Assembly (NCBI GenBank): GCA_015058275.1
Contig: SVCQ01000015.1
Span: forward strand, 1-49,670
Length of the DNA: 49,670 bases
Direction of reading: 5' to 3'
Source: Clostridiales bacterium
GTDB lineage: Bacteria; Bacillota; Clostridia; Peptostreptococcales; Anaerovoracaceae
Shown here: positions 955 through 49,216 of the stretch, in pieces
Layout: every line of letters starts with the position of its first letter
Numbering within the stretch: the first letter of the stretch is position 1
Notes under the pieces: model-generated
The model's database searches: none
What the model was told of the DNA's origin: nothing
The model's input: only the letters and a program-made list of their open reading frames with translations
Position numbers and translations under genes: made by a program

Positions 955-3671
955 TCAGGACGGGCAAGACAAGAAGAAGTCTCTCTGTCCTGCTCAGTCT
1001 CATGACAGCGCTCATGCTCATGGCAGGCGCGTCCGCAACCGGAGCTGATGCTGCTGCCGAGACCGTTACCATTAAAAACGGCGGCATCCAGTATTACGGC
1101 TCCGGCTCTGCCGGCACTCACCTCAGGTGGATCACGCATATCAACGGGGAGCCGGTCGATCTCGGCGATGTGCCGGGAGTGACCACATCCTACGCATACT
1201 GCGTCCAGCCTTATCTGGATACTCCCAAGGCGGGCACCTACAACGTTGTCGTCGTCGAAGACGACGGCAGCGGCAAAGTAGCCGCGATGAGGAAGATGGT
1301 CTACTATCTGCCGGGAGCGTACGGATTTACAAAGGTGACCGGGAGCAGGTGGTTCGGGAGCAACAACAAGACGGGCGCCACGGACTACGCCATCGGCCAC
1401 ATGGTCCTTTCATATATCTATGAGGGCTACCCGGACAGCGGCAAGATCTGGTCCGGGGTCAGGGCGAACGTCAGGGCCAAGGTCCTTGAGATAGCCGCGG
1501 ATATCGGGAACCTCCCGGACCCGCCGAAGGACTTTGAGATATTCTGGGTCAGGGTCGAAGGCAAGCAGGACACCTTCGGCGCCTTCTACAGGGAGGAGGT
1601 CGGCAGCCTGAATGTCAGGAAGGACTCGGCCAACACTCTCATGACGGGAGGCAACGTGAACTACAGCCTCGAAGGAGCGCAGTACACGGTCTATGATGAT
1701 GCAGGATGCACTTCGGTGTCCAAAACGACATCGGGTGCGGATGCAGTCATCACTGTAGGCGTCGACGGTACATCCGGAAGCGTTGAACTGACTTCCGGCC
1801 TCCACTATCTCAAGGAGACAAAGGCTCCGCCGGGCTACGCCCTGGATACGGATGTACACTCCGTGGAAGTGGGTGCAGGGACGACCACGACCTACAATGC
1901 GACAGACAGGCCTAAGTGCAATCCGGTCGACATCCTCATACAAAAGACGGACATGGAGACCGGTAAGCCGAAGCCTCAGGGCGGAGCAAGCCTCGAGGGC
2001 GCGGAGTACACCGTGACCTTCTACGCCGTTAAGACAAGCCCCGGCATGAGCGATGCCGCCATGGAAGCTGCCGTAAGCGGGAAGGCCCCGGCTAAGATCA
2101 ACGGCAAGGATGCCGTATGGGTCTTCCGCACGGACAAAGAGGGACGCATCAGGATGAGCGATCCTGAGACATATATGATCAAGGACAGGAGCGCGCCGCT
2201 TTACACAAGCTCATCCGGCAAACCGGTATTTCCCCTGGGCGTGATCACCGTAAAGGAGACGAAGGCACCTGAGGGATACGAGATCGACAAGGACACTCAC
2301 TATGCGGCGGTAACGGATGCCGGCACGGCCGAGAACCCTGATACGCTGAAGGTGTTTACCGGCAGCAGGGCGCTTAAGGAGCAGGTCATAAGGGGCGATG
2401 TGCACTTCAGCAAAGCTGCCGAGGGAAGGCATAAGCTCGCGGGAGTCAGGTTCAGATTCACATCTCTCACGACCGGCGAAAGCCACATACTTGTGACGGA
2501 CAGGAACGGCTTCGCTTCGACGGCTGCGGACTGGAATCCTCACAGCCAGTCGACCAACGAAGGTCTGACGGCCCGCGACGGAATCTGGTTCAACGGCTAC
2601 GACGATGAGGAGGAAGGCGCTCAGGTCAACGATTCCTTGGGAGCTCTCCCCTACGACACGTACAAATTCGAGGAGATCAGGAGCGAGGCCAACGAAGGCT
2701 ACGAGCTGATCAGCGATGTCATCACCATCGAAAGACCGAGGGTCGATGTGGACCTGGGGACATACGATGACGAGAAGTCGCCGGATCCGCTGATCGAGAC
2801 AAAGGCCAGGGACGATGAGAGCAGGACCGGGACCGCGGTCGCGGACGGCAAGGTCCTGATCGTGGACGAGGTCAGCTACAAAGGGGTATCTGCAGGCAGA
2901 TCATATACCGTGGAGGGAATACTCATGGACAAAGCAACAGCCAAGCCTGTCAGAGACGACAGCGGCAATGAGGTCAGGGGCAGCACAGACTTCTACGCGG
3001 ACGCTCCGGACGGTACTGTCGAGGTGAAGTTCAGCATGAGCGCGGAGACCCTCGCCGGAAAGGATGTCGTTGTATACGAGTATCTCAGGCAGGACGACAG
3101 GCTCGTGGTGGCCCATGCGGACATCAACAATAAGAAGCAGACGGTCAGACTCGCCGAAGCGCCAAAGCCTGAGCTTGCGACTGATGCGAGAGACGCCGAA
3201 AGCGGCAGCGGCAAGGCCGTGGCTGACAGGGACGTGACCATCATAGATACTGTCGAGTACAGGAACCTCAAGGAGGGCGTGCTCTATACGATCGAGGGCA
3301 TACTGATGGACAAGGATACAGGTAAGCCTCTGATGGACGACTCGGGAAGTGCGATCACCGCAAAGGTCTCGTTCACGGCGAAGACCATGAGCGGCTCCAT
3401 CGAGGTGCCTTTCCGCTTCAGCGGCGCAAAGCTTGCCGGCAGGGATGCGGTCGTATTCGAATATCTAAAGGTAGACGGCGAGACCGTCGCAAGCCATGCG
3501 GACATAAAGAGCAGAAGCCAGACCGTGAGGCTGGTGAAGCCGAGGACCGCGGGGAAGTCTCCGGATACAGGCGATTCACACATGCAGCTTCTGTACTGCC
3601 TGGCGGTGATGGCCGCAGCGGCGGAGCTGCTGATATTGACCCTCAAAAGCAGGAATGATAGACTCAACTGA
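951..3671 (+). CDS. Sortase-anchored VaFE/SpaA-repeat surface protein
   Basis: This is a 906-residue cell-wall protein. Residues 1-34 form a signal peptide (basic RTGKTRR start, long hydrophobic core, A-x-A site). Residues 35-205 look like a thioester-type adhesion domain: YCVQP has Cys84, and later comes TDYAIGHMVLSYIYEG. SpaA/Cna-B-like beta domains follow at about 215-325 and 326-470, each ending in a KETKAP-x-GY motif, then a less clear one at 490-620. Two VaFE repeats (about 630-745 and 746-865) each carry ILMDK, a V-V-[YF]-E-Y strand and AHADI. The C-terminus has SPDTGD, one membrane segment and a short basic-ended tail, as expected for sortase anchoring. It is likely an adhesin or pilin-like stalk stabilised by isopeptide bonds. 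No sortase or pilus partner is nearby. GGGAGG precedes the ATG, which overlaps the PC4 stop. Confidence 0.85.
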   Translation: MIRTGKTRRSLSVLLSLMTALMLMAGASATGADAAAETVTIKNGGIQYYGSGSAGTHLRWITHINGEPVDLGDVPGVTTSYAYCVQPYLDTPKAGTYNVVVVEDDGSGKVAAMRKMVYYLPGAYGFTKVTGSRWFGSNNKTGATDYAIGHMVLSYIYEGYPDSGKIWSGVRANVRAKVLEIAADIGNLPDPPKDFEIFWVRVEGKQDTFGAFYREEVGSLNVRKDSANTLMTGGNVNYSLEGAQYTVYDDAGCTSVSKTTSGADAVITVGVDGTSGSVELTSGLHYLKETKAPPGYALDTDVHSVEVGAGTTTTYNATDRPKCNPVDILIQKTDMETGKPKPQGGASLEGAEYTVTFYAVKTSPGMSDAAMEAAVSGKAPAKINGKDAVWVFRTDKEGRIRMSDPETYMIKDRSAPLYTSSSGKPVFPLGVITVKETKAPEGYEIDKDTHYAAVTDAGTAENPDTLKVFTGSRALKEQVIRGDVHFSKAAEGRHKLAGVRFRFTSLTTGESHILVTDRNGFASTAADWNPHSQSTNEGLTARDGIWFNGYDDEEEGAQVNDSLGALPYDTYKFEEIRSEANEGYELISDVITIERPRVDVDLGTYDDEKSPDPLIETKARDDESRTGTAVADGKVLIVDEVSYKGVSAGRSYTVEGILMDKATAKPVRDDSGNEVRGSTDFYADAPDGTVEVKFSMSAETLAGKDVVVYEYLRQDDRLVVAHADINNKKQTVRLAEAPKPELATDARDAESGSGKAVADRDVTIIDTVEYRNLKEGVLYTIEGILMDKDTGKPLMDDSGSAITAKVSFTAKTMSGSIEVPFRFSGAKLAGRDAVVFEYLKVDGETVASHADIKSRSQTVRLVKPRTAGKSPDTGDSHMQLLYCLAVMAAAAELLILTLKSRNDRLN

Positions 3672-22260: not shown

Positions 22261-23166
22261 ATGACAAAACAGGAAAGAAAAAAAGCGAGCCTGATATTCC
22301 TGATCATAGCCCTGGTGTTCATGGTCGGAGCCATCCTTGCCGATAAGAGCAGCGCAGGAGAGGAAGAGACCATACAGGAGGTCATGAGAGATGCTGTTCT
22401 CCATGACATGAACAAGGTCAGCCTCTTCGGACTGATGGATGTCAATCCGGGACTGATTGCGGGCATCATAGTATCGGGCTTCCTGATCATCTTTGCACTT
22501 ATATGCAGGATATTCTTCATACCGAAGTTCACCATGGTACCGGGGAAGTTCCAGCTTGTGCTCGAGACAGTGGTCGGCCTCTTCGACAACATGGCCAGGG
22601 GGAGTTCAAAAATCAACGGCTTCCTCGGAGCCTACATCTTTGCGGCCGGCAGCTATATATTTACGGGCACGCTGTTTGAGCTCTTCGGCTTCCAGGTGAT
22701 CACGACATCAGGGCTGTCAGTATCGCTGCCGGCTCCGCTGTCGGATATAAACGGAGCCATCATGATGGGCTGCCTCTCATATCTGGTCATCATGTCCGGA
22801 GGCATAGCGGGCAACGGCATCAAAGGCATAGGCAAGACCCTCAAGGAGTATTCGCTCCCGATATCCCTGAGCTTCAGGTTGTTCGGTGCATTGCTCTCGG
22901 GCGCGCTTGTCACAGAGCTTGTGTACTACTACTCAGCCCTCAGCTACGTGCTGCCGGTGCTGGTGGGAGTGCTCTTCACACTGCTGCACGCACTCATTCA
23001 GGCATACGTACTGACCATGCTCACATCCCTCTTCTACGGGCAGGTATCGGATAACACCCCGAAGCCGCCTAAGGAGAAGCGAGACAAACTATCAAAGCAG
23101 GCCAAAGACCCTGTCGGTCCGGCAGGCAAGAGAACTTCGGTAGTGCGCAAACACAGACCTGCTTAG
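22261..23166 (+). CDS. atpB: F-type ATP synthase subunit a
   Basis: 301 residues of the Fo stator protein that carries the ion half-channels. The essential arginine is Arg206 in SLSFRLFGALLSGALV. The segment VGVLFTLLHALIQAYVLTML is the conserved last helix. An N-terminal membrane anchor and outside domain with acidic residues precede it. The C-terminal 40 residues are an unusual Lys/Pro-rich cytoplasmic tail. The gene is first in the operon; there is no atpI before it. Confidence 0.95.
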   Translation: MTKQERKKASLIFLIIALVFMVGAILADKSSAGEEETIQEVMRDAVLHDMNKVSLFGLMDVNPGLIAGIIVSGFLIIFALICRIFFIPKFTMVPGKFQLVLETVVGLFDNMARGSSKINGFLGAYIFAAGSYIFTGTLFELFGFQVITTSGLSVSLPAPLSDINGAIMMGCLSYLVIMSGGIAGNGIKGIGKTLKEYSLPISLSFRLFGALLSGALVTELVYYYSALSYVLPVLVGVLFTLLHALIQAYVLTMLTSLFYGQVSDNTPKPPKEKRDKLSKQAKDPVGPAGKRTSVVRKHRPA

Positions 23167-23241: not shown

Positions 23242-23667
23242 ATGCTTAATCTCAACGCAAAGAAACTCACAAGGCTGGCGATCGTACTTGGTGCGATCAT
23301 CCTCATCATGAGTACAGTAGCGACTGTCGCTGCCTTCGCAGACACTGACAAGGGCGCTTCTTCGAACGCCACTCAGACTGTCACAGCTCAGGATTCCGGC
23401 GACGGATACATCGCAGAGGCTTCCGGCGAGGCCGATGGCAACACAACAGGACTCAAGGCTATCGCAGCAGGTATCGCTATCGGACTTGCTTCATGCGGCG
23501 GCGGCATCGGAATGGGTATCTCCGGCGGCAAGGCGGCCGAGGGTATTTCAAGGCAGCCTGAGGCTGACGGCAAGATAAGGACGAGCTTCATGCTTGGCCT
23601 TGTATTCATCGAGACGGCGATCATTTACGCCCTGCTCGTAGTAATACTCATAATCTTCGTACTGTAA
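23242..23667 (+). CDS. atpE: F-type ATP synthase subunit c with N-terminal presequence
   Basis: 141 residues against about 80 in most bacteria. Residues 68-141 are a normal two-helix c subunit (glycine-rich first helix, RQPEADGKI loop, second helix with the ion-binding Glu124). Residues 1-34 look like a signal peptide (KKLTR, hydrophobic core, AFA site), followed by a linker of about 30 residues rich in Ser, Thr, Asp and Gly. At the position of the sodium-ligand Gln32 of Ilyobacter the residue is Met91, while Glu-Thr is kept in helix 2, so ion type is unclear, probably proton. AAAAAGGAG lies upstream. Confidence 0.92.
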
Positions 23668-23814: not shown

Positions 23815-24309
23815 ATGACGGGAGTACCACTTAATATAGACTGGCAGCAGATACTGCTCCATCTGTTCAACTTCACGATCCTCTTCGGAGCCCTGTACAT
23901 CCTGCTCTACAAGCCTGTAAAGGACTTCATGGCAAAGCGCGAGGCTCACTATGCCGAGATGGATAAGAAGGCCGAGCAGGCGCTTGCCGAGGCGGAGTCC
24001 GGCAGGGCAGCCTACGAAAAGAAGGCCGAGGAGTTTGAGGCAGAGGCCAGAGAAGAGAAGAATAAGATGACCAAGGAGGTCGAAGCCGAGCGCGAGCGCA
24101 GACTCAGCCAGGCCAAGGACGAAGCTGAGAAGATAGTCGCAGACGCAAAGGCGGAGGCCGAGCGCGAGAAGAGCGAGATAATATCATCTGCGCAAAAGGA
24201 GATAAGCGGCATGGTAACGGGCGCTGTGGAGAAGCTCGCGCTCGAGCAGTCGGCTTCGGATGCCTTCGATCAGTTCCTCGATGCTGCAGAGGAGGCGGAC
24301 CATGAGTAA
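23815..24309 (+). CDS. atpF: F-type ATP synthase subunit b
   Basis: 164 residues: one N-terminal membrane helix (LLHLFNFTILFGALYILLYK) and a long charged coiled coil (about 40-150) that forms the peripheral stalk linking Fo to F1. The usual partner delta gene should follow but does not; the atpA start overlaps the atpF end by eight bases. CAGGAG precedes the ATG. Confidence 0.95.
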   Translation: MTGVPLNIDWQQILLHLFNFTILFGALYILLYKPVKDFMAKREAHYAEMDKKAEQALAEAESGRAAYEKKAEEFEAEAREEKNKMTKEVEAERERRLSQAKDEAEKIVADAKAEAEREKSEIISSAQKEISGMVTGAVEKLALEQSASDAFDQFLDAAEEADHE

Positions 24310-26041
24310 TGAAGAAAAGATCCTCAGCGCAAAGATCTACTCGGCCGTTGAGCCGAGCAAAGAGCAGCAGGCGAGATTCGGGAGATTTCTCAAAAGTAGA
24401 TACGGACAGGACATAGAGCCTGAATGGATCAGATCGGATGCATTTCCGGGAGGATTCAGGATGGAGGTCGGATCCGATGTCTACGACTGGTCAGTCGGAG
24501 GCAGGTTCCGCCAGCTGAGAGATACACTCATAAAGGTACCGACAGACAACGGCAATATCATCCCTCTGCTCAGGGAGTCCATCTCTTCGTGGACGCCTGA
24601 GGCTCTGGCCGAGCAGGTAGGCGAGGTCAAGACCGTGGGAGACGGCATTGCGACAGTTGTCGGACTCGACCAGGCGACATATGGGGAAATCCTCCTCTTT
24701 GCCGACGGCGTCAGAGGAATGGTCCAGGATATCCGTGAGACCGAGATCGGCTGCGTGCTCTTCGGAGATGACGACGACGTTGTCCAGGGCTCGAGCGTGA
24801 AGAGAACAGGCAAGACCGCCGGCACCCCGGTAGGAGAAGGCTTCCTCGGAAGATGCGTGGACGCCCTCGGTACACCGATCGACGGGCTCGGAGAGATCGA
24901 AGCATCGGGCTACATGCCTGTTGAGACTCCGGCTCCGTCCATCATCGACCGTCAGCCGGTAGACACACCGCTTGAGACCGGTATCTTCTCGATTGACTCC
25001 ATGTTCCCTATAGGCAGGGGCCAGCGTGAGCTGATAATAGGAGACCGACAGACAGGCAAGACAGCTATCGCAACGGATGCCATCATCAACCAGAAGGGCA
25101 AGGACTGCATATGCATCTACGTGGCCATAGGCCAGAAGACCTCGTCGGTAGTTCGTATACAGCAGATCCTTAAGAAGCACGGGGCGATGGATTACACCAT
25201 CATCGTATCGGCTTCGGCCAGCGATACGGCACCGCTCCAGTACATAGCGCCTTACGCGGGCTGTGCGATGGCGGAGTACTTCATGAACAAGGGCAAGGAT
25301 GTCCTCATCGTGTATGACGATCTGTCAAAGCATGCGGTCGCATACCGTGCGCTCTCGCTGCTGCTGGACAGATCCCCGGGCCGTGAGGCTTATCCGGGAG
25401 ACGTATTCTACCTGCATTCAAGACTGCTCGAGAGGGCAGCCAGGCTGTCAGACCGCATAGGAGGCGGATCAATCACGGCTCTTCCTATAGTTGAGACCCA
25501 GGCGGGAGATGTATCTGCATACATACCGACCAACATCATCTCGATCACCGACGGCCAGATATTCCTCGAGTCGGATCTGTTCTTTGCCGGACAGAGACCG
25601 GCCGTAAACGTAGGACTGTCTGTATCCCGTGTAGGAGGAGATGCGCAGACCAAGGCGATGAAGAAAGCCGCAGGTACTCTGAGGATCGACCTCGCTCAGT
25701 ACCGCGAGATGGAGGTCTTCACCCAGTTCGCATCCGACCTCGACGACCAGACAAGAGCTCAGCTCGAATACGGTCAGGGACTGATGCGCATGCTGAGACA
25801 AAAGCAGTACAAGCCTAAGTCGCAGCACGAGCAGGTCATCACCCTCGTCATGGCTCTGGCTCATACGATGCAGGGCATAGATCCTGATGATGTCAACAAA
25901 TTCATCGAGGGCCTGATCGGCATGTTCGAGAGCGAGCACAGAGATATCTGCGACCGCATCGACTCGACGGGACAGCTCGATGATGACCTCAAACAGGAGA
26001 TCATAGATATATCGGCGAAATACCGCGAGACTTACAAGTAA
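24302..26041 (+). CDS. atpA: F1 ATP synthase alpha subunit with fused delta-type N-terminal domain
   Basis: 579 residues, about 75 more than a normal alpha. Residues about 10-76 read like the C-terminal domain of the delta subunit (OSCP): SAVEPSKEQ matches the delta pattern SA-x-LT-x-EQ, and GGFRMEVGSDVYDWSVGGRF matches the delta segment ending in DGSV-x-G. From about residue 85 it is ordinary alpha (SISSWTPEALAEQVGEVKTV), with Walker A GDRQTGKT at 247-254 and the arginine-finger region later. The frame is open throughout and ATG 24302 overlaps atpF. The large N-terminal helical domain of delta is missing, and no atpH is in the operon. A separate atpH elsewhere in the genome is not excluded. 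Confidence 0.93.
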   Translation: MSNEEKILSAKIYSAVEPSKEQQARFGRFLKSRYGQDIEPEWIRSDAFPGGFRMEVGSDVYDWSVGGRFRQLRDTLIKVPTDNGNIIPLLRESISSWTPEALAEQVGEVKTVGDGIATVVGLDQATYGEILLFADGVRGMVQDIRETEIGCVLFGDDDDVVQGSSVKRTGKTAGTPVGEGFLGRCVDALGTPIDGLGEIEASGYMPVETPAPSIIDRQPVDTPLETGIFSIDSMFPIGRGQRELIIGDRQTGKTAIATDAIINQKGKDCICIYVAIGQKTSSVVRIQQILKKHGAMDYTIIVSASASDTAPLQYIAPYAGCAMAEYFMNKGKDVLIVYDDLSKHAVAYRALSLLLDRSPGREAYPGDVFYLHSRLLERAARLSDRIGGGSITALPIVETQAGDVSAYIPTNIISITDGQIFLESDLFFAGQRPAVNVGLSVSRVGGDAQTKAMKKAAGTLRIDLAQYREMEVFTQFASDLDDQTRAQLEYGQGLMRMLRQKQYKPKSQHEQVITLVMALAHTMQGIDPDDVNKFIEGLIGMFESEHRDICDRIDSTGQLDDDLKQEIIDISAKYRETYK

Positions 26042-26195: not shown

Positions 26196-28501
<2,306 letters not shown>

Positions 28502-28502
28502 G

Positions 28503-28919
28503 ATGGACACATTCAGACTTGAGATACTTGCAAGCGATCATATGGTATTTGACGGTGAGGCGCAGTCGGTATCGCTTCCTACGACAGAGGGAAGCGTAGG
28601 CGTGCTGGCGCATCACTCCAATGTTATCATGGCCGTAGTGCCTGGAGTGGTCAGATACCAGCCGGCCGGAGACAGCAGCATCGATGTTATAGTGTCCGAC
28701 GGTCTTCTCAAGGTCGAAAACGGCGAGGTCCTTGTGCTTGTGGATACGGCAGAGTCGCCTGATGAGATAGACGAGGCCAGGGCAAGAAGGGCCGAGGAGA
28801 AGGCGCGCGAGGACATGAAGAGGGCGCACTCCAACCGCGACATGGCACTGGCGAGCGCGGAGCTTTCGAGGGCCATGAGCCGCCTGAAGGCATCAAAGAA
28901 CAAGCACCACATACGCTAG
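28503..28919 (+). CDS. atpC: F1 ATP synthase epsilon subunit
   Basis: 138 residues. The N-terminal beta barrel (residues 1-84, with EGSVGVLAHHSNVIMAVVPG) binds the rotor, and the C-terminal two-helix arm (about 85-138) can inhibit ATP hydrolysis. The ATG is one base after the atpD stop, so translation is coupled. Confidence 0.96.
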   Translation: MDTFRLEILASDHMVFDGEAQSVSLPTTEGSVGVLAHHSNVIMAVVPGVVRYQPAGDSSIDVIVSDGLLKVENGEVLVLVDTAESPDEIDEARARRAEEKAREDMKRAHSNRDMALASAELSRAMSRLKASKNKHHIR

Positions 28920-35144: not shown

Positions 35145-35282
35145 CGGCGGGTGACTTGCTGTGCGCAGGGGCCCTGCGCAACAGGGCTCCGTGAACCATG
35201 TCAGGACCGAGAGGTAGCAGCATTAAGCGATCGGTCTTGTGTGCCGCAGACAAGCCTCTGCGTACTGCAGGTCGCCCGCCAT
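35145..35282 (+). ncRNA. ffs: Signal recognition particle RNA (bacterial)
   Basis: The conserved apical region GTCAGG-ACC-GAGA-GGT-AGCAGC (35200-35222, around a GAGA tetraloop) is the Ffh-binding site, and the 3' strand contains GTGTGCCGCAGAC. The ends pair as GGCGGGTGAC (35147-35156) with GTCGCCCGCC (35271-35280), with one wobble, enclosing about 134 bases. That is longer than E. coli 4.5S (114) but well short of the Bacillus 6S-size form, so an Alu domain is not expected. ATTTTAT follows. Genes ffs-dnaX-ybaB-recR are a classic neighbourhood. Confidence 0.9.
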
Positions 35283-46778: not shown

Positions 46779-47258
46779 ATGGCAGCACAGAAATCCAATG
46801 AAATGACAAGAGAAGGCTATGATAATCTTAACGCCGAACTTGAACATCTTATCACCGTAGTACGTAAGGAGAACGCAGAGAGACTCAAGGAAGCCATCTC
46901 GCTCGGAGATATCAGCGAGAACGCAGAGTATGATGCAGCCAAGGACGCTCAGGCAGAGACTGAGGAGAGGATCTCCGACATCGAAGAGATCCTGCGTACG
47001 GCAGTTATCGTAGAGGAGACGGATGAGAGCGACGATTCCGTACAGACGGGCCGCACAGTTACCATCCAGGACCTCGACACAAAGGAGAAGATGACATACA
47101 AGATCGTAGGTACTACCGAGGCTGATCCGCTCAACGGCAAGCTCTCAAACGCATCGCTGGTAGGCCAGCACCTGCTCGGACATCACGCAGGAGACAAGGT
47201 TGAGTTCCCTGTACCGGACGGCATGGCCAGATATAAAGTCGTGGAGGTCAAGAGATAA
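46779..47258 (+). CDS. greA: Transcription elongation factor GreA
   Basis: 159 residues. The N-terminal coiled coil reaches into RNA polymerase with the acidic tip GDISENAEYDAAKDAQ, and the FKBP-like C-terminal domain has LSNASLVGQHLLGHHAGDKV. It rescues backtracked polymerase by RNA cleavage. Its TAA overlaps the lysS ATG; greA-lysS is a common pairing. Confidence 0.97.
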   Translation: MAAQKSNEMTREGYDNLNAELEHLITVVRKENAERLKEAISLGDISENAEYDAAKDAQAETEERISDIEEILRTAVIVEETDESDDSVQTGRTVTIQDLDTKEKMTYKIVGTTEADPLNGKLSNASLVGQHLLGHHAGDKVEFPVPDGMARYKVVEVKR

Positions 47259-49216
47259 TGGCTGATAACAAAGAGACCATGAACGGAGCAGCTCCGGGTC
47301 AGGTCGAGGAAAAGGAACTCACCGAAAAGGAAATCGGCGAGCAGAGACAGATCAAGAGGAAGAAGCTCGAAGAACTCAGAGAGATGGGCAGAGACCCGTA
47401 TCTCGAAGAGACCTTTGATGTTACTGCCCACTCCGGAGATATCAAGGAAAACTTCGAGGCCATGGAGGATCAGGAAGTCAGAGTCGCAGGACGTATCATG
47501 GCTTTCAGACGCATGGGCAAGGTAGCCTTTGTCGATCTCCAGGACAAGCAGGGCAGGATACAGATCTTCGTGGCCAGAGACAATATCGGCCAGGACGAGT
47601 ACAACGTATTCAAGACATATGACACAGCCGACATCATCGGCATCAGCGGCGTGGTCTTCAGGACCAAGACAGGTGAGATCAGCGTAAGGGCCATGGAGGT
47701 CAAATTGCTGTGCAAGTCGCTTCAGGTACTGCCAAACAAATGGCACGGCCTCAAGGACACAGACCTCAGATACCGCCAGAGATATGTCGACCTCATCATG
47801 AACGAGGACGTAAGAGACGTCTTCATGAAAAGGGCAAAGATCATCAGCACCATGCGCAAGGTGCTCGAGGATGATTACGACCTGATCGAGGTAGAGACAC
47901 CGGTGCTCGGCAATATCGCCGGAGGCGCTGCTGCCAGGCCTTTCATGACGCACCACAACACTCTGGACATAGACATGACACTGAGGATCTCCCTCGAGCT
48001 TCACCTCAAGAGACTCATCGTCGGAGGACTCGACGGAGTATACGAGATCGGCAAGGTCTTCAGGAACGAAGGCATGGACAAAAACCACAGCCCTGAGTTC
48101 ACTTCGATGGAGGCTTACAAGGCCTACGTCAACCTTGAGACCATGATGGATCTCATGGAGCAGGTCACATACAAGTGCGCTATGGCAGTCAACGGAACTC
48201 CGATCATCAAGTACGGTGACAAGGAATTCGACGTGACTCCGCCATGGAACAGGATCGACATGACAGAGGCTGTCATCAAGGTCACGGGCATCCCGTTTGA
48301 CAGGATCGACAGCGATGAAGAGGCTATCGAGGCTGCCAAAAAGTACGGCATGACCTTCGAGAACGAAGACGACTGGTCGAGAGGCAAGATCATTGCCGAG
48401 ATGTTCGAAGACTACTGCGAGGACATCCCGGGCTTCCTGGACGGACCGTGCTTCGTCTGCGGACATCCGCTCGAGGTATCGCCTCTTGCCAAAAAGGACC
48501 CTAAGGACCCTCGCATCACAAGAAGATTCGAGTCGTACATCAACGGCTGGGAGCTGTCCAATGCATTCTCCGAGCTGAACGACCCGATCGATCAGTACGA
48601 GAGATTCGCCGAGCAGCAGAGACAGCTCGACCTCGGCATCGACGACGAGGCCCATCCGATGGATACCGACTTCGTCAATGCTCTTGAAGTCGGCATGCCG
48701 CCGACAGGAGGCATCGGCATCGGAGTCGACAGGCTCGTTATGCTGCTCACAGACAGCGCGACTATCCGCGACGTCCAGCTCTTCCCGACTATGAAGCCGG
48801 AAGGCAGGGGAGCAGGCGCTAAGAAGGAGCGCGTTGAGATCGACTTCAGCAAAGTTAAGGTGGAGCCTCTCTTCGAAGAGGAGGTCGACTTCGATACATT
48901 CAGCAAGTCTGACTTCAGAGCGGTCAAGATCAAGAGCTGCGAAGAGGTCAAGAAGAGCGACAAGCTGCTGAAGTTCACTCTGAACGACGGATCGGGCGAA
49001 GACCGCATCATCCTGAGCGGCATCAAGAAGTACTATGACCCTTCCGAACTCGTAGGAAAGACAGCGATCGCGATCGTGAACCTTCCTCCGCGCAAGATGA
49101 TGGGCGAGTACTCAAACGGCATGCTGATCAGCGCCGTCAACGAGTATGACGGAGACGAGATGCTCAATCTCCTGCTCGTGGACGACAGGATCCCTGCCGG
49201 CGCCAAGCTGTACTAG
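47258..49216 (+). CDS. lysS: Class II lysyl-tRNA synthetase with C-terminal Trbp111-like domain
   Basis: 652 residues against about 500 for a normal LysRS. An N-terminal OB anticodon domain (about 70-165, VRVAGRIMAFRRMGKVAFVD) is followed by the class II core with motif 2 (FRNEGMDKNHSPEFTSMEAY) and motif 3 (GMPPTGGIGIGVDRLVMLLT). From about 543 an extra domain of some 110 residues (DFDTFSKSDFRAVKIKSCEE, then GIKKYYDPSELVGKTAIAIV) is the EMAP/Trbp111 tRNA-binding fold usually fused to MetRS. Two CxxC-like cysteines (CFVCG) lie in the core. It is coupled to greA by a one-base overlap. Confidence 0.95.
   Translation: MADNKETMNGAAPGQVEEKELTEKEIGEQRQIKRKKLEELREMGRDPYLEETFDVTAHSGDIKENFEAMEDQEVRVAGRIMAFRRMGKVAFVDLQDKQGRIQIFVARDNIGQDEYNVFKTYDTADIIGISGVVFRTKTGEISVRAMEVKLLCKSLQVLPNKWHGLKDTDLRYRQRYVDLIMNEDVRDVFMKRAKIISTMRKVLEDDYDLIEVETPVLGNIAGGAAARPFMTHHNTLDIDMTLRISLELHLKRLIVGGLDGVYEIGKVFRNEGMDKNHSPEFTSMEAYKAYVNLETMMDLMEQVTYKCAMAVNGTPIIKYGDKEFDVTPPWNRIDMTEAVIKVTGIPFDRIDSDEEAIEAAKKYGMTFENEDDWSRGKIIAEMFEDYCEDIPGFLDGPCFVCGHPLEVSPLAKKDPKDPRITRRFESYINGWELSNAFSELNDPIDQYERFAEQQRQLDLGIDDEAHPMDTDFVNALEVGMPPTGGIGIGVDRLVMLLTDSATIRDVQLFPTMKPEGRGAGAKKERVEIDFSKVKVEPLFEEEVDFDTFSKSDFRAVKIKSCEEVKKSDKLLKFTLNDGSGEDRIILSGIKKYYDPSELVGKTAIAIVNLPPRKMMGEYSNGMLISAVNEYDGDEMLNLLLVDDRIPAGAKLY

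Follow-up and report, generated by a model that had tools for sequence, protein, structure and literature searches.

Natural fusion of the delta C-terminal domain to the alpha subunit of an ATP synthase in a Clostridiales bacterium: a possible route to enzymes with more than one stalk

A fused alpha subunit in a compact operon

The window analysed here, the whole stretch of 49,670 nucleotides at positions 1 to 49,670 of contig SVCQ01000015.1 (assembly GCA_015058275.1, a Clostridiales bacterium of the family Anaerovoracaceae), carries an F-type ATP synthase operon whose alpha subunit gene, atpA, opens with a piece of another subunit, delta. The gene (24302-26041, forward strand) is one open frame of 579 amino acids, running from an ATG at 24302 to a stop at 26041, with AGGAGG 5' of its start. 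The original prediction held that the first 76 residues correspond to the C-terminal part of delta/OSCP and that the remainder is ordinary alpha, and both statements stand. Searched alone, residues 1-86 match PF00213 (OSCP) at E=2.8e-10 and 41 bits (gathering score 22.3), residues 2-76 aligning to positions 97-172 of the 172-position profile, which is the C-terminal half; in the whole-length protein the match is E=9.2e-9. The alpha model TIGR00962 covers residues 85-577 at 725.7 bits.

Three parts can be delimited within the frame. The delta/OSCP C-terminal domain occupies residues 1-78 (24302-24535) and has the predicted order beta-alpha-beta-beta-beta-alpha in an AlphaFold2 (AF2) model of residues 1-100. 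A linker and the retained N-terminal helix of alpha follow at residues 79-99 (24536-24598), and the alpha core, with its beta-barrel, nucleotide-binding and C-terminal domains (PF02874, PF00006, PF00306), fills 24599-26038. None of ATG, GTG or TTG is in frame at residues 72-108, so a mixed pool of alpha chains made by internal initiation is rejected, for the window gene only.

Comparison with known structures gives the same picture of the N-terminus. The AF2 model of residues 1-100 has a mean predicted local distance difference test score (pLDDT) of 67.5, with residues 11-60 at 80-88, and its top matches in the Protein Data Bank (PDB) include the delta-named chains 9itj_S (E=6.3e-5), 9o19_W and 6n2y_I. 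With residues 1-86 as the query, phmmer recovered delta chains from the PDB (best E=0.001) and the fusion chain of 9jc1 (E=0.013), an engineered delta-dN-alpha protein present there in three copies. A profile built from 28 proteins of type I, our name for a group that comprises the window and 21 further genomes checked, matched 210 PDB sequences at E<=1e-10; among the best 60 of these only 9jc1 aligned over its whole length (profile 7-573 to chain 4-576), the other 59 starting at position 75 or later. Foldseek likewise ranked 9jc1_I first for the model of whole AtpA, over 575 columns. The TM score of that model to 9jc1 is 0.42 and the root-mean-square deviation 25 A, so it is sequence and local structure that support the correspondence, and the overall geometry does not.

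The fused gene appears to be maintained. The delta-like part has a mean dN/dS (ratio of nonsynonymous to synonymous substitution rates) of 0.13 in the 10 usable of 11 pairs, indicating purifying selection, and the alpha core a mean of 0.057 in 11 pairs, both figures being rough because most dS values exceed 1. A draft genome such as the one that supplied the window could in principle yield an assembly or annotation artefact, a chance match or a decaying gene. The open frame, the same layout in many independent genomes and the purifying selection refute this explanation, to which we give next to no chance. The analysis confirms that AtpA of the window is a true fusion of a delta C-terminal domain to alpha, and that the N-terminal domain of delta is gone.

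Around atpA, genes for alpha, beta, gamma, epsilon, a, b and c form a single F-type operon on the forward strand in the order atpB-atpE-atpF-atpA-atpG-atpD-atpC; atpH is missing from it, as had been claimed. The a subunit gene atpB (22261-23166, 301 amino acids, motif FRLFGALLSG) was assigned by PF00119, alignment, and hydropathy and lengths, and the c subunit gene atpE (23242-23667, 141 amino acids) by PF00137 on residues 74-137, the usual hairpin, which a signal-peptide-like extension precedes. The FRLFGAL of atpB aligns with canonical a subunits, and FIETAIIY is found in atpE; we take the former to hold the essential arginine of a and the latter the carboxylate of c. The b subunit gene atpF (23815-24309, 164 amino acids, PF00430) scores above the gathering threshold with the b model and no other, the delta part being on alpha, and its end at 24309 overlaps the start of atpA by eight bases, exactly as first described. 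Downstream lie atpG for gamma (26196-27095, PF00231), atpD for beta (27116-28501), recognised from gene order and its translation, with a profile that recovers beta genes at the same place in related loci, and a complete atpC for epsilon (28503-28919, PF02823 and PF00401).

Two known arrangements resemble this operon in part. N-ATPases (TIGR03324 and kin) presumably also have an operon without a separate delta. Unlike an N-ATPase, however, the window alpha scores 594.2 against a TIGR03324 cut-off of 750.5 while lying well over that of TIGR00962. The gene order differs as well, N-ATPase operons being led by beta-epsilon with extra genes (PMC5709465, in the passages seen). The mycobacterial b-delta fusion (PDB 7jg5_d and kin) similarly joins a delta domain to a neighbouring subunit; the window protein does not belong to that type, its delta domain being on alpha, which is present in three copies, and not on b. 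In the passages seen of PMC5709465, which concerns ATP synthase gene order, the b-delta fusion is treated and a delta-alpha fusion is not.

Search for delta and alpha elsewhere in the genome

The window genome is a draft of 1.82 Mb in 36 contigs, 82.8% complete. PF00213 at E<=10 gave a single match across it, the fused AtpA itself, and TIGR00962 at E<=1e-120 found one F alpha and no second. A genome of the same genus (G135, 97% complete) carries the same fusion, its AtpA being 88% identical to that of the window, and a separate atpH, whose discovery would have undermined the original prediction, was found in neither genome. The window enzyme combines an in-frame fusion, an absent N-terminal domain and, within this 82.8% complete draft, no separate delta and no unfused F alpha.

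These searches bear on the idea that the N-terminal domain of delta, or a whole delta, is supplied in trans from another gene, giving an ordinary one-stalk enzyme. In favour of it, a separate full delta occurs in 5 of the 22 type I genomes (G003, G369, G553, G586 and G781). Where the surrounding sequence was fetched, this delta lies in a second, canonical operon (L142 of G553, and L094 of G003, which is ended by its contig). However, no such gene was found in the window genome, and in 17 of the 22 type I genomes nothing but the fused gene scores above the OSCP gathering threshold (a weak additional match in G810 has E=0.06). We regard supply in trans as very unlikely. Two genomes that had seemed to hold a separate delta lacking the N-terminal domain (G780 and G884) proved on closer search to have that domain.

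Distribution of the fusion

We gathered 71 named loci with a query built from fused N-termini, a procedure that selects for the fusion and so gives no frequency. In all 71 the AtpA frame contains a match to the delta C-terminal domain (a few frames are ended by their contig), and in none of the 71 is there a separate delta frame in the fetched stretch. The nearest named kin of the window locus belong to Mogibacterium sp. and to uncultured Clostridiales genomes, many from goat or sheep gut. More distant loci come from Ca. Crickella, Ca. Gallimonas, Ca. Ornithoclostridium, Ca. Alloclostridium, Ca. Avimonoglobus, Lachnospiraceae, and Acholeplasmatales/Anaeroplasmataceae genomes.

Genome samples extend this picture. 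Among 148 genomes of the window's own family, a short fusion with a frame unbroken from near residue 1 occurs in eight (the window genome G000, G135, G102, G040, G019, G003, G091 and G026, the last ended by its contig at residue 530). Two further family members, G107 and G143, carry a full-length delta on an otherwise canonical alpha of 688 and 691 amino acids, with N-terminal domain matches of E=6e-22 and 1e-20. Across the class, 217 of 391 genomes have an F alpha and at least 35 of these are fused, a lower bound that counts matches at E<=1e-8 without a stop across the junction. Of the 35, which span 23 genera and 16 family codes, 31 (the window included) were checked in fetched sequence, and G558, G588, G724 and G863 are counted by profile match alone. 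Outside the class, in a phylum sample of 398 genomes, checked short fusions were present in G425, G229, G470, G168, G315 and G212, together with a fusion in G340 that is ended by its contig. The survey of relatives thus recovered the fusion well beyond the genus of the window.

Some loci depart from the usual layout. In G105 (L100, 3683-5920, reverse strand) a 745-residue alpha frame has its delta C-terminal match at residues 160-238, after an unrecognised first part, and sits on a very long branch. In G779 (L132, around 1998-3590) a type I alpha has lost the delta domain and kept linker-like residues, and a separate full delta lies on another contig; this genome was left out of the fused and unfused counts on account of that alpha.

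Evolutionary history

The order in which these fusions arose can be read, in part, from a tree of the alpha core with 84 rows, 63 of them counted as fused. It includes 18 of the 71 named loci and L132, counted as fused despite its missing delta domain, and leaves out L100 (long branch), the near-duplicates L139 and L144, and the partial L138. Type I forms one clade (97/99) whose members come from many families, and the tree as a whole requires at least seven changes between the fused and unfused states, for some of which fission in the unfused rows is a possible alternative. A single origin of all fusions is rejected: forcing the 63 fused rows into one clade costs 367 log-likelihood units (approximately unbiased test, p=2e-49). 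A clade of type I with the fused rows of another family, f4, is unrejected (p=0.50), and type I may share its origin with the f4 fusions.

Full-length fusions, in which the N-terminal domain of delta is kept, occur at L098, L099, L113, L121, L127, L139 and L140, with lengths of 669-691 amino acids. Those of family f1 nest inside unfused canonical rows (100/99). In f4 the short fusions (G289, G708, G750, G908, G729 and G874) and the full-length ones (G543 and G838) both have ordinary a and c subunits, and the two forms group together (99/93). This grouping suggests that fusion came first and loss of the delta N-terminal domain second. Also in f4 are G369, which has a type I operon, and G769, whose enzyme is unfused. 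A separate full delta is present in each of the eight f4 genomes whose fusion is either full-length or short type II, and the second operons of G543 and G874 (L114 and L141) are canonical, like those of G553 and G003.

An unusual Fo

In type I the changes reach beyond alpha into the membrane sector. The 20 type I loci have a median c of 119.5 amino acids (range 106-158) and a median a of 279.5, compared with 83.5 and 233.5 in 12 unfused loci and 78 and 230 in 24 other fused loci; lengths are counted from the first start codon of each frame, and some are too long. The extension of c resembles a signal peptide, with a hydrophobic segment followed by AFA-D, and the extension of a adds one hydrophobic segment; about 13 residues are missing before the arginine helix of a. 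The window shows the same in atpB: its N-terminal extension carries the additional hydrophobic segment, and the sequence ahead of the arginine helix is shorter by about 13 residues. Its c subunit (23242-23667) also has a long polar stretch between the signal-peptide-like N-terminus and the hairpin, a feature common to type I operons. The 158-residue c frame of G019 departs from the family pattern past mid-length and may hold a frameshift.

The C-terminal end of b meets the delta socket in known enzymes, and type I b subunits retain a recognisable C-terminal end. In two type I loci gamma and beta share one frame without a stop (L118, 6064-8454, in G658, and L122, 6091-8496, in G781; 797 and 802 amino acids). 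This apparent fusion of rotor to stator would block rotation unless it is cut; the beta of these loci might also start separately, as there are purine-rich stretches before the beta methionine.

Stalk number and gearing

The original prediction proposed that fusion to alpha would make the grip of delta covalent and its N-terminal domain dispensable, and it saw a stoichiometry puzzle in three delta-like domains per F1. Both points have a counterpart in an enzyme made by design (Ueno et al. 2025, PMC12229609, cited here from part of its text). There, residues 2-104 of delta were deleted in Bacillus PS3 and the remainder was fused to alpha (PDB 9jc1), so that the fusion does replace the grip. In the absence of the N-terminal domain from the threefold axis, up to three b2 stalks bind, each with an a subunit, which is the proposed answer to the puzzle. 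Cryo-EM (cryogenic electron microscopy) particles showed 0, 1, 2 and 3 stalks in 15, 51, 26 and 8% of cases, gels gave 2.2 times the wild-type amount of a and 1.8 times that of b, and H+/ATP was 5.8 compared with 3.0. The window protein resembles this construct in domain order, in its short linker and in the removal of the N-terminal domain (the construct keeps PS3 delta residues 105-178). It differs in being natural, with a complete epsilon and extended a and c, whereas the man-made enzyme has the C-terminus of epsilon deleted and the Bacillus PS3 Fo.

We hypothesize that the natural enzyme works along the same lines. Each alpha N-terminus would carry the C-terminal domain of delta, to which the upper end of the b2 stalk is normally attached, and the delta N-terminal domain, whose place on the threefold axis limits canonical enzymes to one stalk, is lost here. 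F1 would then offer three equal sockets, since each of three alpha chains carries the domain and the symmetry-breaking N-terminal domain is gone. More than one and up to three b2 stalks could assemble, and with each of them an a subunit would join the one c-ring. Because the number of protons per turn is the number of c subunits times the number of a subunits (PMC12229609, part of its text), H+/ATP would rise two- to threefold, and the cell could make ATP, though more slowly, when its proton (or sodium) motive force is low. In other words, the window enzyme may be a naturally low-geared ATP synthase. We put the probability that the natural enzyme carries more than one stalk, as the engineered one does, at roughly 0.6; that it behaves in the cell like the engineered one is inferred by analogy.

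Natural precedents are of two kinds. Fusions in Acidaminococcus fermentans, UniProt G4Q3K6 and A0A1I2C5T3, called likely multi-stalk by Ueno et al., are by their description natural delta-alpha fusions without the delta N-terminal domain, like that of the window, and the sections of PMC12229609 seen contain no experiment on them. Multi-stalk enzymes from natural fusions have thus already been predicted in print, and the window is a further case of such a fusion. The second precedent is Chloroflexus aurantiacus, for which 18 PDB entries (9itj and kin) together contain 36 a chains and 72 b chains, and six entries contain 12 delta and 18 alpha chains. By these counts three alpha go with two delta, two a and four b, which implies that a natural enzyme can have more than one stalk. 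Unlike in the window, its delta (157 amino acids) and alpha (522 amino acids) are separate chains. Among the matches listed in our literature search there was no further paper on natural delta-alpha fusions and no direct test of a natural one.

Several observations weigh against a multi-stalk enzyme in the window or against the steps that lead to it. No stoichiometry or structure of a natural fused enzyme was found among the matches listed, and stalkless and one-stalk particles together made up 66% of those seen for the engineered enzyme (PMC12229609, as cited above). The cell would need three a and six b subunits per F1. The AF2 model of whole AtpA is poor (pLDDT 61.7, predicted TM score 0.46) and its geometry carries no information. 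At 82.8% completeness, the window genome could have a separate delta in its missing sequence. An internal start is possible in relatives, 52 of 68 type I rows having some ATG, GTG or TTG in residues 72-108 (GTG at 79 and ATG at 102 are frequent among near kin) and 16, the window gene included, having none. Finally, seven natural fusion loci keep the delta N-terminal domain, so fusion alone does not need its loss; three such domains per F1 could hardly fit on the axis.

Some of these points favour an enzyme in which a single b2-a stalk is bound, the remaining two delta domains are unoccupied or in contact with neighbours, and H+/ATP is ordinary. In its favour, one stalk was present in 51% of engineered particles and none in 15% (PMC12229609, same sections). 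Moreover, atpB and atpF are single genes between their usual neighbours, and three a with six b would need strong translation. However, with the N-terminal domain lost, nothing is known to us that would stop stalks from binding at two of the three identical sockets, and for the engineered enzyme gels and energetics alike gave a figure of about two stalks (PMC12229609, same sections). Conservation does not separate the two outcomes, because the delta domain is necessarily conserved in all copies. We consider a single-stalk enzyme unlikely, though a serious contender.

The direction in which a multi-stalk enzyme would run is a separate matter. With the same anatomy, it might serve mainly as a proton (or sodium) pump at low motive force, hydrolysing ATP in a fermenting cell, with a large number of ions moved up a small gradient for each ATP. 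The named kin place the window in an anaerobic gut lineage, and by the half-channel model a geometry with several a subunits should work both ways. Against this, the engineered multi-stalk enzyme pumped less well than the wild type (PMC12229609, part of its text), and in the window cell RnfC, as part of a redox pump, could set the gradient, and a V-type ATPase could take on ATP-driven pumping. A role mainly as a pump therefore seems to us possible, on the doubtful side.

If natural fused enzymes do hold several a subunits, then H+/ATP, generally taken as set by c-ring size (introduction of PMC12229609), would also be set by stalk number. A 10-c ring with three a subunits would by simple arithmetic from the published relation, as that paper gives it in the part cited, use 10 H+ per ATP and need about a third of the usual minimum motive force. 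Anaerobes may in that case live on motive forces below the accepted threshold.

A second rotary ATPase

A low-geared enzyme could share its cell with an ordinary one, and the class sample is suggestive of such a pairing. Of the genomes with an F alpha, 32 of the 35 fused ones and 96 of the 181 unfused ones encode either a second F alpha or V-type subunit I at E<=1e-5 (Fisher p=9e-6), with the proviso that this composite was formed after seeing the data and that these tests ignore phylogeny. The difference is smaller when counted by genus (20/23 compared with 68/111, p=0.03). It persists when the V-type matches of fused rows are restricted to those over the gathering score (30/35, p=3e-4) and when fused f4 rows are removed (23/26, p=5e-4). 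The fused genomes without a second rotary ATPase are G852 (71% complete), G743 and G636.

Neither component is a general partner on its own. A second F alpha is in excess among fused genomes (12/35 compared with 15/181, p=2e-4), an excess that stems from f4 and disappears without its fused rows (3/26 compared with 15/181, p=0.48); V-type alone is not enriched in the class sample (21/35 compared with 88/181, p=0.27). Within the window's family, 7 of the 8 fused genomes and 13 of the 34 unfused ones have a V-type match at E<=0.001 (p=0.02), and 6 of the 8 fused have one over the gathering score (p=0.11). A family comparison of any second enzyme (8/8 compared with 13/34) was not used, since second F alphas were uncounted for the unfused genomes. 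The window genome encodes a V-type ATPase subunit; G082, an unfused member of its genus, has a canonical operon (L097) and no V-type match. RnfC, over its cut-off in the window genome, is not distinctive, being over the cut-off in 8 of 8 fused and 24 of 34 unfused family genomes (p=0.16) and in 19 of 22 type I genomes.

We propose, tentatively and as an account that would more probably fail in some part than hold as a whole, that multi-stalk enzymes with several a subunits evolved repeatedly in nature by delta-alpha fusion followed by loss of the delta N-terminal domain. Type I would have rebuilt its Fo, with an extra helix in a and an exported tail on c, around three a subunits. Most carriers would keep a second, conventional rotary ATPase and so have two gears, one making ATP from a weak gradient and the other building a gradient from ATP. 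The type I clade, its unusual Fo, the intermediates and the link to a second ATPase had no counterpart in the literature we found. The survey turns one printed remark into a large set of candidates with natural intermediates; the genomes of several candidates also encode a canonical enzyme, which can serve as an internal control.

Other features of the window

Two minor observations concern other parts of the window. The product of 47258-49216, which we take to be lysyl-tRNA synthetase-like, ends in a tRNA_bind domain (PF01588, E=1.5e-21), presumably as in MetRS. A bacterial small SRP RNA (RF00169, 60.1 bits) lies at 35165-35264, at the start of a frame that we take, from its reading, to be dnaX-like.

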